A stretch of 50,202 nt of DNA from a virus: positions 1 through 50,202 of the IMG/VR virus record IMGVR_UViG_3300045741_000124, one strand, 5' to 3'. The notes under the pieces were generated by a model. That model had not been told where the DNA came from. It worked only from the letters and a program-made list of their open reading frames with translations, and made no database searches. Shown here one piece after another: positions 2,278-44,612 of this stretch (position 1 is the first letter of the stretch; the number at the start of each line of letters is the position of its first letter). A program made the position numbers and the translations under genes.

Positions 2278-4725
2278 GTGATTGATTGGCGGAATTTTGA
2301 CAAGAAGCAGTGGCCATTGTGCCAGCAGTGCCCGTCGCTGAAGAACAAGTTCGTCCCCCCTGATATCGTGATTGGGGCACCACTGATGGAGGTTGGGGAG
2401 AGACCGGGGGAGACTGAGGTTAATGGTGGGAGAGTGTTCATTGGAGATGCTGGGAGAATAAACGATGGATTATTGGCTAAAGCTGGGACTCATCGGCGGT
2501 TTGTTAGTATTGCCAACACTGTTGCTTGTTACGCTAAGGGTAATACGACACCGACAACAGAGGAGATTGAGTGCTGCGCTCCAGTCCTTGAACAAGCAAT
2601 TGCAGATGCTAACCCCCGAGCCTTACTTGCTCTCGGCGGTACAGCTACCAGACGGCTCATTGGTGATCGACCGATCACGACATGGCGTGGAAGTATTATT
2701 GCCCGGTCGCGCCTTGTCCAGCTTGGAGAAGGCAGAGTGCTTGGGCCGGATACGTTCAAGTCAGGGCCACGAAGAGGTCAACTGAAGCCGCATAAGGTGA
2801 TGAAGGAAGTGGTGCAGCCGGAGGGGCTTCCGGTTGTACTGACACTGCACCCCGCTTCGCTGCCACGGACGGGGTTCGTTACGTATCCACTCGTGGTGCG
2901 GGACTTCAGGAAGGCAGTGAAGGTTGCCACGGGGAGTGAGTTGGTTGAGGTGGGGTCGGTGTTGGCACTCCAGCAGTCAGCGGAAGTGCTGGGGAATGTA
3001 TTGAGTAGGGTAAAGGAGGTGGTGCTGGATGTCGAAACGAACGGTCGTAGAGGCGAACTCACAATTGTCGGTGTGGCTCCAGATGTTCAACGCGGATTCA
3101 CCTTTCAGCCTACTCCAGAAGTTCTCTCAGTTCTCCGCCGTTGGCTCTCTCTACCCACCAATAGACTTATTGGTCACAACATCGGGTATGACGTTGCGGT
3201 TCTTGAGGACAACGGCATTCGAACTACTGCAAGTCTATGGGACACCATGCACGCCGCCCACTTTGACCGGGCCGATCTGTCAGGTGGAAAGACCGCTACC
3301 GACGACAGCGATTGGCGGAGGACGAAAGGGACGCAGCCCGCGAAAGCCCTAGATATGGTTGCCTCTCGACTGGGCGGGTATTACTATTACAATTGGAAGG
3401 AGCAGTTTCGGAGTGGATTGGAGCGCAATCCACACCGTTACTGTGCGCTCGATTGTACGTGGACCCGTGCGATATATGATGAACTCAGGCCCAAGTTTGA
3501 GCGTGAGCGACGACTTGAGGCGTTTGAGCAGGGGATTATGCCCGCTGTGCCGGTGCTACTCAGGATGCAGGAGGATGGGGTCAGGGTGGATGAGGAGCTT
3601 CGGGCTGAGTTGTATGGGTTGATGTGGAAGGGATGGCAGGAGGTTGAGGATCAGTGGACAGTGAAGGTGCCCACGGTGAGACCGGGGCAATCGGTTGCGC
3701 TCATGGATTGGTTCTACAATCATGAGGGACTTGAGCAGCAGTACAATGGACGTGGGGCTGAGAAGCGGAGGACGTTGGATGATGGGGCACTGGAGAAGCT
3801 GTTGCGGAAGTATCCCAAGCGGCAGGAGTTGCGGCTGCTCGCGGAGTGGCGTCACCTCAAGGGGATCATGGATAAGTACTTGAGCCCGGAGTTGTTCCGC
3901 AACGGACGCTTATATCCACAGTACAACTTGAGCGGCACGTTCACGGGGCGGCTCAGTGGTGGAGGTGAGGATGGATTCAACTTTCAAAATATCCCTCGGA
4001 CAGGGAAAGCTAATGAGTGTCCCAAGGGAATTGTGGCGTGTCAGTGTCACCGGCTCCGGGGACTCTTTCTCGCTGACGCTGGTGATTGGATGGTCGGATG
4101 TGCGGACTGGTCGCAGTTGGAGTACAGACTTGTCGCGATCTTGGCTGGAGAAGGGTGGCTCATTGACAGTTTCAAGGATCGTGCCTTCGACATCCACACC
4201 TTCACTTCCAGTGAACTCGGGGTGGCCCGCAATCCCGTCGCGAAGAACGTCAATTTCGCAATGATCAACTGGGCCGGGGCGGATAAGATTGCCGCGACGG
4301 CGAAGGTGGATATGGAGACGGCGATGGGGTTTCTCCAGCGGATCAGGGCGCGGATTCCTGCGATCAGCCAGTATCAGGCGGGGCTGTTGGACTTCGTAAG
4401 GAAGAATGGGTATGTGCAGACACCATTCGGGTGGAGGATGCACCACCGGGTGCAAAGGGATGGACTCTACAAACCCACAGAGGTAGTGGCGGGGCCGCAT
4501 CAGTCTTGTGGTGGTAGCATGATGAAGATTGCTCTGGCGAGAGCGGCTGAGGCTGGGTTGAAGTTGAGGGTCACGGTGCATGACGAGTTGGTGGTTAGCT
4601 TAAGGGGGCCGGAGGAGTTGCCCAAGCTGAAGGAGGTAATGGAACGTGGATATGAAGAAGTTGGAGGATGGGGATGCTATGCGGAGGAGGGAAGTGGGAG
4701 AAGTTGGGCCGAGGCTAAGCACTGA
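2278..4725 (+). CDS. Family A DNA polymerase with N-terminal uracil-DNA-glycosylase-like domain
   Basis: An 815-residue replicative polymerase with three modules. Residues about 10-215 match family 4 UDGs: paired Cys (CQQCPSL), GERPGETE, VFIGDAG, further Cys in NTVACYA and EIECCAP (probable Fe-S ligands), RG and a HPAS motif. Next comes a DEDD 3'-5' proofreading exonuclease: DVETN, HNIGYD and YCALD. The palm and fingers follow: motif A ADWSQLEYR, motif B with RNPVAKNVNFAMINWAG, motif C VTVHDELVVS. The usual Tyr-Gly of the O helix reads Asn-Trp-Ala-Gly. GTG 2278 follows a purine-rich GGGGGGAAAGGG stretch. It should copy the phage genome. Confidence 0.95.
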   Translation: MIDWRNFDKKQWPLCQQCPSLKNKFVPPDIVIGAPLMEVGERPGETEVNGGRVFIGDAGRINDGLLAKAGTHRRFVSIANTVACYAKGNTTPTTEEIECCAPVLEQAIADANPRALLALGGTATRRLIGDRPITTWRGSIIARSRLVQLGEGRVLGPDTFKSGPRRGQLKPHKVMKEVVQPEGLPVVLTLHPASLPRTGFVTYPLVVRDFRKAVKVATGSELVEVGSVLALQQSAEVLGNVLSRVKEVVLDVETNGRRGELTIVGVAPDVQRGFTFQPTPEVLSVLRRWLSLPTNRLIGHNIGYDVAVLEDNGIRTTASLWDTMHAAHFDRADLSGGKTATDDSDWRRTKGTQPAKALDMVASRLGGYYYYNWKEQFRSGLERNPHRYCALDCTWTRAIYDELRPKFERERRLEAFEQGIMPAVPVLLRMQEDGVRVDEELRAELYGLMWKGWQEVEDQWTVKVPTVRPGQSVALMDWFYNHEGLEQQYNGRGAEKRRTLDDGALEKLLRKYPKRQELRLLAEWRHLKGIMDKYLSPELFRNGRLYPQYNLSGTFTGRLSGGGEDGFNFQNIPRTGKANECPKGIVACQCHRLRGLFLADAGDWMVGCADWSQLEYRLVAILAGEGWLIDSFKDRAFDIHTFTSSELGVARNPVAKNVNFAMINWAGADKIAATAKVDMETAMGFLQRIRARIPAISQYQAGLLDFVRKNGYVQTPFGWRMHHRVQRDGLYKPTEVVAGPHQSCGGSMMKIALARAAEAGLKLRVTVHDELVVSLRGPEELPKLKEVMERGYEEVGGWGCYAEEGSGRSWAEAKH

Positions 4726-41235: not shown

Positions 41236-41264
41236 AGTTGAGACAAGAGAGGAGGTGAGAATAA

Positions 41265-42347
41265 GTGAGAGCAGGGACTTTTGTTAATCGACAGCGATTG
41301 CAGGACTCCAACCGTATTGGTGAGCAGATTACTGCCTTCGTCAGGCAGCATGAACAACACCTCAGACGAGCCAATGAGTTGTTACAAGAGGCTGAACGGA
41401 TGAAGGTGGAGCGGGAGAAGGTTGGGGAAAAGTGGGAAGAGCACAGGAAGAGATTGAGGGAGTTGAAAGGGTTTGCTGGGCAACTGCAAGGGCAAGTGTT
41501 GAAAGTGCCCTTCCCACGGCAAACGGTGGGAAGTGTGGAGTTTGAGGGTGAGATACAGTTTAATTACTCGTTTAGGGAGGGGAGGTTTAATCTCCCTACC
41601 TACTCGGGTAACGCTATTCTCCCCGATGGGACCCGGGGATATGAGAGAGCCCCCCACTATTATGTTCATAGCCCGGAAGAGCCAAAGATATGCCTTGGGA
41701 GTGCTGCTGGAACGGTTGAACTGTTGCTACAACAGTGGCGTCTCAATGAGGCAGTTGATATGGTTCTGAGGGTTATGACTAGGGCACCACAAGTTGGGGA
41801 TTCTCCATTTCACAGTGTGGCTGAGTATCAGAACTTGGTGAAGTGTGAGTGTGGGTTTGTTTACTCACTGCTTTGTAGTGGGGAATGTCGAATGTGTAAT
41901 GTCTCGGGGAGAAGCAGGGTTGGGTTGTATCTTCCCGAGTTGACACGGGTTGCGACTACTGATGTGGTTGAGACTGCGACTGCCACTGTGGCATCTGTGG
42001 AAGAGCGGGATAGTTGGGGACCGGGAGTTTGCCCTGAGTGTGGTTTAAGCAGTAACAATTTGCGGAGTTTCCCCACTTCCAACTACCCACGCAATCGTTA
42101 TTGTGTGGAGAGGTGCTTTGACCAGAGGATGCTTTGTAGCTGTGGGGCTATCATCAGGACGGATACGGTAAATCGAGTGGAAGGTAGACAATTGTGTAGG
42201 AATTGTTTCGGTGCGCTTTACTTCATATGCCGTCATTGTGCGGTTACTTATCTCAGAACACATGCACACTATGGGAATAGGGATAATCAGTTCATTGCCT
42301 GTAGTGAAGCGTGTGTGATGGCATTGGTCATTAATCAGAACTTCTAG
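41265..42347 (+). CDS. E2-like (UBC-fold) protein with C-terminal zinc-finger cluster (360 aa)
   Basis: GTG 41265 follows GGAGGTGAG. Residues 10-75 are coiled coil. Residues about 80-175 fit a prokaryotic E2-like fold: strands GSVEFEGEIQFNYSFREG, a proline-containing loop, PHYYVHSPEEPKICLGSA with candidate active Cys143, then helices with LLLQQWRLNEAVDMVL. Residues 194-350 hold over a dozen Cys in CxC and CxxC pairs (CECG, CPECG, CSCG, CRNC, CRHC), a possible E3-like or substrate-binding part. The JAB and E1 genes follow directly. The E2 call is by motif and context, not by search. Confidence 0.6.
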   Translation: MRAGTFVNRQRLQDSNRIGEQITAFVRQHEQHLRRANELLQEAERMKVEREKVGEKWEEHRKRLRELKGFAGQLQGQVLKVPFPRQTVGSVEFEGEIQFNYSFREGRFNLPTYSGNAILPDGTRGYERAPHYYVHSPEEPKICLGSAAGTVELLLQQWRLNEAVDMVLRVMTRAPQVGDSPFHSVAEYQNLVKCECGFVYSLLCSGECRMCNVSGRSRVGLYLPELTRVATTDVVETATATVASVEERDSWGPGVCPECGLSSNNLRSFPTSNYPRNRYCVERCFDQRMLCSCGAIIRTDTVNRVEGRQLCRNCFGALYFICRHCAVTYLRTHAHYGNRDNQFIACSEACVMALVINQNF

Positions 42348-42386: not shown

Positions 42387-43382
42387 GTGGGTATCAGGAT
42401 TATTTACAAGAGGACGGAGTGGCTCAAGACTCAGCAATGGTGTAAGTGGGCTGGGTTGAGTCCAGAGGGGAAAGGCTCGGTCACTGAGGTAATGTGGCTG
42501 GGGAGAGCGGTTAGGGATGGGGGGAGTGAGGATATCTGGATTGATGAGGTGAGGTTCCTCCACAAGCAGAACAAGGCAACTGGGGGAGAGTGCTCCATCA
42601 GTGCTGATGAAATGGCGGATTTTATTGCCATGATCATTGCTGAGGGTGGAGATCCAATGGAGTGGAACTACTGGGGACACTCCCATGCATCAATGGGGGC
42701 GTTCCAGAGTGGACAGGATATCAGCAATACGAGAGAGAGGTTTGAGCAGAAGCCTTGGGCTGTTGCGGTTACTCATAATGCCAAGGGTGATGCTTATGGG
42801 GAACTCACTATGTTCCAACCCTTCTATGTCAGGGTGGAGAAGGTTCCAGTGCTCATTGAGTCCGTGGAAGAGGTGCTGAGTCCAGAGGAACAGATGGCGA
42901 AGAGTGAGGTTCAGGCGTGGAATGATCGCGTCAGTAAGGAGGTGACTGCTACTCACTATGCTGGGGCAGTCACTTACTTTCCCGGGGAAGGAGGGTGGGG
43001 TAGTGGAGGCACCGAGAGGGTTGACAAGAAACGAGAAGAGAAAGTGGTGGGCGAAGCAAAGGGAAGCCCGTCAAAAGCGGAAGACCTCCGGAGTGCTACC
43101 CTGTCTTTCGTAGGTGAGATGGATGAGGGGCAGACGGATGCTACACTCAAGGAGTATGAAGGGGAGGAGATTGAGGTTGATCTCCCTACCGACTACGTTG
43201 AGTATAGGGTAAGGGCAGGGGAGTTGGAGTGGAATTCACTCACCTTCAATGGTGGATTCAAGAGAGTGAGTGGGCTCTTGAGGAAGCAACATGCGCTGAG
43301 TGCATTCATCAGGAGAGAGATGGAGGGGAAAGAGGTGCAGTATAGGGAGTTCACCATAGGAGGGGATTTCCTTGTCGATTAG
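42387..43382 (+). CDS. JAB/MPN-domain metallopeptidase (331 aa)
   Basis: GTG 42387 follows AGGAGGTG. The JAMM signature is complete: Glu34 in VTEVMWLG, then WGHSHASMGAFQSGQD with His98, His100, Ser108 and Asp111 (HxHx7SxxD). JAB proteins cleave ubiquitin-like modifiers from precursors or conjugates. After about 160, a charged linker leads to a second, unidentified domain (about 245-331). The E1-like gene overlaps its end by 11 bases. It probably matures or removes the modifier. Confidence 0.85.
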   Translation: MGIRIIYKRTEWLKTQQWCKWAGLSPEGKGSVTEVMWLGRAVRDGGSEDIWIDEVRFLHKQNKATGGECSISADEMADFIAMIIAEGGDPMEWNYWGHSHASMGAFQSGQDISNTRERFEQKPWAVAVTHNAKGDAYGELTMFQPFYVRVEKVPVLIESVEEVLSPEEQMAKSEVQAWNDRVSKEVTATHYAGAVTYFPGEGGWGSGGTERVDKKREEKVVGEAKGSPSKAEDLRSATLSFVGEMDEGQTDATLKEYEGEEIEVDLPTDYVEYRVRAGELEWNSLTFNGGFKRVSGLLRKQHALSAFIRREMEGKEVQYREFTIGGDFLVD

Positions 43383-44103
43383 CAACCTTATCAGTAGTGA
43401 TGAGGGAGTGGAGGTAGTGGGAGAGGGGCAGCAGTTTGCCCCTCTTTCCATCGTCATTGATTACAGCAGGCAACAGGAGTTTGTGCCACCACTGTTGAGG
43501 GAATCGCCTGTTGCGATAGTGGGAGTGGGGACTACGGGGAGTTGGCTCACAATGATGCTGGTGAGGATGGGGTTTACTAATATCACTGTGTTTGATAATG
43601 ATGTGGTGGAGAGCCATAATATTCCCGCTCAATGGCACTCCCCCCTTGAGATTGGGGAGAGTAAGATCATGTCGGTGAGGAAGGGGATCAGGAAGATGGG
43701 ATTCCCTACTCTCGTTTCAATCGACAATGCTGTTAATGAGTTTACTAATATGCTGGACTTCGGGACAGTGTTCGTCTGCACTGACTCGGTTGAGTCAAGG
43801 CGAGTGATTGCAACACAGGTGTTCAAGGATCAGGGTGAGTTGGTGGATTTGCGAATGGGGTTGGAATATGGTAGTGTGTTGTTCAGCCCCCCTCTGTCAC
43901 ACGAGGGTTATCTCAAGACACTGGAAGTGGAGATGGAACCGGAGCCTACTTGTGGCAGGCGGGCACTGTTGACGGATGCTCTAGCGCTCACTTCCAATGT
44001 GTTGGCAATGTGGTTGCACTCGAAGCGCACTAATGAGCCGCTCCCCCAACGCTACTATTGGAACTTCGGGAATGGGGGCGGGGAAAGGCAGAGTGAGGAA
44101 TGA
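43372..44103 (+). CDS. ThiF/E1-like adenylating enzyme (243 aa)
   Basis: TTG 43372 lies behind AGGAGGGG. The E1 nucleotide fold is clear: VAIVGVGTTGSWL, the ATP/Mg motif FDNDVVESHNIPAQ, GESKI (catalytic Lys) and VFVCTDSVESRR (Asp). PTCGRRALLTDALAL contains a candidate thioester Cys. The zinc-binding CxxC pairs of ThiF/MoeB are absent, as in many conjugation-type E1s. It should adenylate the C-terminal Gly of a ubiquitin-like protein. It overlaps both neighbours. Confidence 0.85.
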   Translation: MSISNLISSDEGVEVVGEGQQFAPLSIVIDYSRQQEFVPPLLRESPVAIVGVGTTGSWLTMMLVRMGFTNITVFDNDVVESHNIPAQWHSPLEIGESKIMSVRKGIRKMGFPTLVSIDNAVNEFTNMLDFGTVFVCTDSVESRRVIATQVFKDQGELVDLRMGLEYGSVLFSPPLSHEGYLKTLEVEMEPEPTCGRRALLTDALALTSNVLAMWLHSKRTNEPLPQRYYWNFGNGGGERQSEE

Positions 44104-44391: not shown

Positions 44392-44426
44392 CCGATTACT
44401 CCCATTTTTGGTGGGGAGTGATTCGG
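44392..44426 (+). promoter_or_regulatory. Second hairpin overlapping the tRNA-like start
   Basis: CCGATTACTCCC (44392-44403) pairs with GGGAGTGATTCGG (44414-44426) with one G-U and one bulge. Its last bases are the first of the tRNA-Ser-like element, so the two structures exclude each other. Confidence 0.5.
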
Positions 44427-44522
44427 AGAGGTTACTATGGGAGGTGTATGGTATGGGATTCGAGTTCCCACACCCTACTGGTCAGGGGTGAATGGTAGCG
44501 GGTTCGATCCCCGCCCCTTCCA
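44425..44522 (+). tRNA. tRNA-Ser-like gene (anticodon CGA)
   Basis: A class II cloverleaf can be drawn. The acceptor GGAGAGG pairs with CCCTTCC with one A-C mismatch, and the D stem is ACTA/TGGT. The anticodon stem TGGGA/TCCCA is perfect with loop TTCGAGT, so the anticodon is CGA. A long variable arm (CACCC...GGGTG) follows. The T stem GCGGG/CCCGC closes TTCGATC. Discriminator A is followed by CTA, not CCA. The variable region is long (27 bases) and the acceptor imperfect, so it may be non-functional. Confidence 0.5.
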
Positions 44523-44612
44523 CTACTACTATTACTACTATTGTTACTATAACTACTATGGAACAACTAATGCACTAATAAGGGTGCATTGGTATGGAAT
44601 GGAGAGCGGAAG
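44523..44612 (+). other. ACT trinucleotide-rich spacer
   Basis: After the tRNA-like element comes a pyrimidine-rich run of CTA/ACT triplets (44523-44560), then a short spacer to the next ribosome site. No gene or clear promoter is seen. Confidence 0.5.

Follow-up and report, generated by a model that had tools for sequence, protein, structure and literature searches.

One predicted phage protein, P0001, combines a long N-terminal helix, a UBC/E2-like core and a cysteine-rich tail, and this raises the question of whether a single viral chain may unite E2 and E3-like functions. The protein is encoded in a 50,202-base virus record (IMGVR_UViG_3300045741_000124, positions 1 to 50,202; here called the window), in which phage portal and capsid genes are also present. 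On the basis of sequence comparisons, we consider it probable that P0001 is the E2 of a phage four-gene module for conjugation of a ubiquitin-like protein (Ubl), composed of the Ubl (P0004), the E2-zinc protein, a JAB peptidase (P0002) and an E1 (P0003), in this order (Table 1).

The gene of P0001 is genuine, as the earlier note had it: it begins with GTG, is preceded by AGGAGGT and encodes a product of 360 aa. The N-terminal coiled coil proposed in that note agrees with the AF2 model, where residues 2-73 form a helix of good confidence (block-mean pLDDT 63-95). Searched alone, P0001 gave weak matches to coiled-coil proteins only, while the same N-terminal layout recurs in its relatives. Cys143, in the motif KICLG, is the sole cysteine before residue 194, and the remaining 17 all lie within residues 194-350. 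Chance does not explain this arrangement, which puts 17 of 18 cysteines into the C-terminal 46% of P0001.

Table 1. Genes of the module and predicted parts of P0001, with positions in the window
Feature	Position	Strand	Basis
P0004, probable ubiquitin-like modifier, 108 aa	40656..40982	+	Ubl HMM, phmmer
Shine-Dalgarno AGGAGGT, 8 bases 5' of the P0001 GTG	41250..41256	+	sequence
P0001, E2-like / zinc-tail protein, 360 aa	41265..42347	+	ORF list and profile matches
P0001 N-terminal long helix / coiled coil, residues 2-73	41268..41483	+	AF2, layout of relatives
P0001 UBC/E2-like core, about residues 77-187	41493..41825	+	E2-core HMM over residues 124-187; family profile vs human E2s
P0001 predicted catalytic Cys143, codon TGC	41691..41693	+	aligns with family invariant Cys = E2 active Cys
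P0001 CxC/CxxC knuckle, Cys 194, 196, (204), 208, 211	41844..41897	+	Cys spacing
P0001 zinc finger 1, Cys 256/259/280/284	42030..42116	+	Cys spacing, finger profile
P0001 zinc finger 2, Cys 291/293/311/314, closest to L155 finger	42135..42206	+	spacing, finger profile, L155 match
P0001 zinc finger 3, Cys 322/325/346/350	42228..42314	+	Cys spacing, finger profile
P0002, JAB/JAMM peptidase; JAMM HSHASMGAFQSGQD at residues 98-111, Glu34 upstream	42387..43382	+	motif, relatives
P0003, E1/ThiF; GxGxxG, DxD, candidate catalytic Cys194 (codon 43951-43953)	43372..44103	+	Pfam, alignment

The next two genes 3' of the P0001 gene encode the JAB and the E1. P0002 contains the JAMM pattern E...H-x-H-x7-S-x2-D, made up of HSHASMGAFQSGQD and the upstream Glu34, and has relatives among the ORFs of related loci (E 4e-14); taken alone, it gave no Pfam match, and direct searches for relatives were likewise empty. 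P0003 matched PF00899 (E 1e-18) and the CBASS E1-E2 models (E 2.9e-11), and its Cys194, in TCGRR, aligns with a cysteine of other phage ThiFs. P0003 possesses the ThiF fold, the ATP motifs and a candidate catalytic cysteine expected of an E1/ThiF protein.

Relatives were reached by searching with the P0003 E1 for phage ThiF genes and inspecting their neighbourhoods, where JABs, Ubl-like ORFs and candidate E2s with HSH..CLG or HPH..CLG were seen. Scans of viral contigs, made with a pair of E1 sequences and with JAMM DNA patterns, together with a scan of genome contigs, yielded 238 loci. HMMs recognised module genes in 233 of these 238, mostly uncultured phage contigs: E1 was found in 215 loci, JAB in 228, E2 in 163 and Ubl in 125, and all four parts occurred together in 104. 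Since the set was selected by JAMM/E1 patterns and contains a few duplicates and many truncated loci, these counts do not tell how frequent the genes are in nature. The gene orders seen most often were E2-JAB-E1 and UBL-E2-JAB-E1, and the window has this order. A 595-kb phage (L005) was set aside, as its ThiF and JAB genes are arranged otherwise and no E2 was recognised there. The JAB pattern also occurs in MAGs (loci L209-L239) assigned to Obscuribacterales/Melainabacteria, Patescibacteria, Firmicutes and Flavobacteria, and an E2-like gene is close by in most of them.

The identification of P0001 as an E2 depends on profiles of its relatives, as sequence identity to them is low and P0001 alone had no match in direct searches of Pfam, PHROGs, PDB, phage or IMG/VR sequences. 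An E2-core HMM was built from 89 viral proteins with P0001 left out. Its sequences had been picked by the C-x-G motif, so conservation of the motif is partly due to selection; the score on the following helix is not. Among the 376 window ORFs and 1000 shuffles P0001 ranked first, with 21.1 bits (E 1.1e-8 for a single sequence), the runner-up reaching 5.6 bits. In hhalign, P0001 was aligned on Cys143 with an 18-sequence viral E2 profile lacking P0001 (probability 70.7%, E 3.8e-5), and the JAB, used as a control against the same profile, obtained 0.1%. When compared with PDB, this 18-sequence profile matched only UBE2A/UBE2B at E<=0.01 (1.8e-3), covering the sheet and aligning HPH with HPN and the two cysteines with each other. 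With a 17-sequence profile including P0001, all 60 of the PDB matches listed were ubiquitin E2s or E2 fusions, and Pfam UQ_con matched two members of the E2 family (1.8e-4). The best phmmer match of P0001 among 8819 ORFs of related loci was the E2 of L155 (E 0.036), the similarity covering both the Cys motif and one zinc finger.

The surroundings of Cys143 are those of a divergent family member. Relatives carry HPH, APH or GPH before the catalytic cysteine, usually HPH; P0001 has A-P-H131 plus H135, in a loop 4 residues longer than theirs. The AF2 model, made from the 17-sequence alignment, has no UBC sheet, but its overall confidence is too low (mean pLDDT 53.6) for it to count for or against the fold; the pair of helices that follows Cys143 is modelled confidently. 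The viral profiles built without P0001 support the assignment of Cys143 to the E2 catalytic position, and P0001 combines significant profile similarity to the E2/UBC superfamily with a predicted catalytic cysteine in a C-x-[GD] site; the window contains no other E2 candidate. The UBC-like middle with candidate Cys143, as suggested in the earlier note, is thus upheld by the viral profiles, the E2-only PDB matches and the adjoining E1, JAB and probable Ubl genes.

The Ubl of the module is probably P0004. It lies directly 5' of the E2 gene, in the position that the Ubl occupies in relatives, with a gap to P0001 of 282 bp, compared with about 35-110 bp in the latter. P0004 scored highest of the 376 window ORFs against the Ubl HMM (E 3.4e-6 for a single sequence), and phmmer found six matches for it among the 8819 ORFs of related loci, all six being Ubls. 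The Ubl-like stretch comprises the C-terminal residues, approximately 69-106, ending in KGG; then RRA follows (...EAKGGRRA), a tail that a JAB could remove. The N-terminal half is atypical for a Ubl and the AF2 model is poor. In its first half P0004 is similar to the beginning of the L229 Ubl, and in its second half to the end of the Ubls in L188 and L064, as if it consisted of two merged Ubls.

Other phage Ubls showed variation of their own. Three tandem copies form a poly-Ubl in L181 (10543-11175), and two-copy tandems occur in L188 (1347-1775), L149 (74-520), L172 (8781-9557), L208, L178 and L074; these loci were found via the JAB of the module. Of 125 phage Ubl C-termini, 43 end exactly in GN (e.g., L098, L103, L141) and 17 exactly in GG. 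The Gly-Asn ends would require trimming or unusual E1 chemistry.

The tail of P0001 holds exactly eight close cysteine pairs (194/196, 208/211, 256/259, 280/284, 291/293, 311/314, 322/325 and 346/350), and C204 is left unpaired. The count of about eight CxC/CxxC pairs given in the earlier note is therefore right, except that two of them (280/284 and 346/350) are CxxxC. Three units of the form C-x1-2-C-x17-20-C-x2-3-C, separated by linkers of 6-7 residues, can be recognised, and the same unit is present in L155, L169, L172 and L077. A profile of the finger unit, which includes the three fingers of P0001, matched mostly LIM domains in PDB (CRP1, 2.5e-6). A LIM domain is made of two fingers, C-x2-C-x16-23-H-x2-C and C-x2-C-x16-21-C-x2-C, joined by x2. 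The spacing of 17-20 within the P0001 fingers fits this pattern, but the linkers are of 6-7 residues and not 2, so we call the fingers LIM-like rather than LIM, although the PDB matches of the profile are mostly LIM. Our preferred reading of the tail is a short CxC/CxxC knuckle and, after it, three LIM-like fingers of treble-clef type in tandem. We also considered a RING, whose cross-brace follows C-x2-C-x(9-39)-C-x(1-3)-H-x(2-3)-C-x2-C-x(4-48)-C-x2-C. This assignment was rejected for the P0001 fingers, where the spacing is 2-20-3-6-1-17-2-7-2-20-3 and the fourth ligand is not His; the remark in the earlier note that the pairs do not follow RING spacing was correct for this protein.

An E2 with a Cys-rich tail was found in at least 14 further loci (L003, L012, L030, L039, L064, L077, L102, L115, L124, L147, L155, L169, L172 and L213), thus the architecture recurs. 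Eight relatives have, directly after the E2 and instead of or in addition to LIM-like units, a binuclear module C-x2-C-x~11-C-x2-C-x4-C-x2-[C/H]-x9-14-C-x2-C, the profile of which matched FYVE, PHD and RING proteins in PDB, including UHRF1, RNF4, NOT4 and TRIM21. Within the family, then, it is credible that an E2 and an E3-like zinc module are joined.

Could the zinc tail of P0001 itself act as an E3 in cis, binding the E2~Ubl intermediate and speeding transfer? Such a single-chain E2-E3 would agree with the eight relatives just described and with FYVE, PHD and RING proteins among their PDB matches, and an E3 fused to its E2 in this way would be constitutive. However, P0001 is devoid of the binuclear signature, its three fingers align with the LIM type, and cysteine spacing by itself is no proof of E3 activity; we therefore judge this reading unlikely, though worth keeping in view. 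LIM-type fingers need not be E3s. The proposal that E2 and E3 functions are joined in this chain hence stands for its E2 part, while the E3-like part is less likely for P0001, whose own fingers resemble LIM-type treble clefs, even though sister proteins have a RING/PHD/FYVE-like binuclear module in the same position. A quite improbable alternative is an inactive, UEV/RWD-like scaffold, i.e., a zinc-finger DNA- or protein-binding subunit for which the E2 fold is a mere platform. It would suit the short, divergent core without canonical HPN, and inactive copies do exist, since in some loci there is an additional E2-like gene that lacks the Cys motif. Against it, Cys143 is the sole cysteine outside the zinc cluster and falls within the family motif, no alternative E2 candidate is present in the window, and the E1 and JAB motifs are intact. 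As an observation apart, adjacent E2-like pairs, at least one member lacking the CLG-type motif, occur in L072, L100, L132, L154, L164, L165, L171, L187 and L191, and possibly represent couples of an active and an inactive E2.

The remaining two explanations would dispense with conjugation. In a ThiS/MoaD-like sulfur carrier system, the Ubl and ThiF would deliver sulfur to the modification of tRNA or of a cofactor, with the Cys-rich protein serving as a metal or sulfur relay. The Ubls do look ThiS-like, ThiF is common to both systems and the module is closely followed by a tRNA gene; but most loci also have a JAB and a protein of an E2 family whose catalytic motif is conserved, and the Pfam sample of 67 flanking proteins revealed no rhodanese, thiamine or MoCo gene, which makes a sulfur carrier very unlikely. 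It is hardly probable at all that P0001 is an unrelated zinc-finger protein whose CLG resembles an E2 motif by chance: the lack of Pfam, PHROGs or PDB matches for P0001 alone would be expected then, yet the profile scores far exceed those of shuffles and other ORFs, and the gene order is conserved.

To return to P0001 as the E2 of a conjugation module, the sequence comparisons establish that E2, JAB and E1 are present, to which families they belong and in what order they stand, as well as the recurrence of both module and fusion, and they give good support to the Ubl; from these parts we infer the following chemistry. The JAB would trim RRA off the Ubl and expose the C-terminal Gly; the E1 would adenylate the Ubl and then load it on E1 Cys194; the Ubl would move from there to P0001 Cys143, and the E2 would pass it to a lysine of the target. 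Through its coiled coil, the E2 would dimerise or serve as an adaptor. As for the LIM-like tail, we infer that the fingers may bind the target or E1/Ubl, so that one chain would both select and conjugate. The JAB might additionally strip the tag off.

The genomic neighbourhood offers a hint about the target. In the window the module is near a PD-(D/E)XK nuclease and an AAA_24 ATPase, and in the Pfam sample of 67 proteins from the flanks of relatives the commonest were DnaB helicases (12), AAA_24 (9) and AAA_25 (6). Neighbours of this kind (DnaB, AAA_24, nuclease) point to an early-acting module, perhaps one directed at phage or host proteins of replication or recombination, though early phage genes cluster in any case. 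The window also contains a tRNA-Ser gene (anticodon cga, 44425-44523) shortly 3' of the E1 gene, and an 815-aa chain (2278-4725) in which a uracil-DNA glycosylase domain (PF03167) is joined to a family A DNA polymerase (PF00476).

Bacterial operons with Ub-like, E1, E2 and JAB genes were described in 2006 (Iyer et al., types 6a-6e, PMC1779556), including a Ubl-E2-JAB-E1 type in bacteria and phage tail genes with only a Ubl-JAB pair. The closest is type 6d (PMC1779556), an operon in which, as here, Ubl, E2-like, JAB and E1-like proteins are each encoded by a gene of their own. Type 6d is bacterial, its E2 is without the usual histidine and it includes an extra helical protein, whereas the module of the window is phage-borne, keeps PH before the cysteine, and has an E2 with coiled coil and zinc fingers. 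CBASS, with Cap2 (E1-E2) and Cap3 (JAB), shares the E1/E2/JAB logic and a related E1 domain; in contrast to it, the window has separate E1 and E2 genes and a Ubl candidate, and is carried by a phage. Reading the window ORFs by eye revealed no CD-NTase or CBASS effector, and E2s of the phage family did not match PADLOC models. Among eukaryotic E2s, the family profile matches UBE2A/UBE2B and UBC4/5 across the sheet and the HPN..C site, but P0001 itself has diverged too far to be matched directly, shows APH where they have HPN, and bears the coiled coil and zinc tail.

Closer parallels are found in phages. The zinc-tailed E2s of L155, L172, L115, L039, Xanthomonas phage PhiXhv-12 (892 aa) and Erwinia phage Ep032 have a coiled coil, an HPH..C-x-G core and a Cys cluster, the latter varying between LIM-like units, binuclear RING/FYVE-like modules and dense CxC/CxxC runs. 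The crAss-like/Flavobacterium phages cr126_1, FpV4 and Dulem virus 41 possess a Ubl-like ORF, E2 candidate (HSH..CLG or CIG), JAB and ThiF in the same order, but the E2 candidates, unlike P0001, have no zinc tail. A literature search, with preprints and subscription papers outside its scope, returned bacterial systems but no description of the phage family or of an E2-zinc fusion. Prokaryotic Ubl conjugation is thus known, and what appears unusual here is the single-chain E2-zinc architecture, in a phage.

Bacterial ubiquitin-like conjugation is mostly discussed as an anti-phage weapon (CBASS, Bil); here, Ubl, E2, JAB and E1 are carried by phages themselves. Since related kits are present in more than 100 other viral contigs, protein tagging seems to be much more widespread among bacterial viruses than is generally recorded. 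As a tentative and somewhat doubtful extension, tailed phages might hold a large unrecognised class of complete Ubl cascades, some of them with tandem poly-Ubls, in which E2s repeatedly gained LIM-like or RING/FYVE-like zinc modules as a built-in E3 and by which replication or host proteins are modified in the course of infection. The system is open to experiment, as related phages of cultured hosts have been sequenced (Xanthomonas PhiXhv-12, Flavobacterium FpV4). If active, it would be a viral protein-modification system with a small single-chain E2 carrying its own substrate-binding or E3-like zinc part, and it may help to explain how the link between E2s and the zinc domains of E3s arose.
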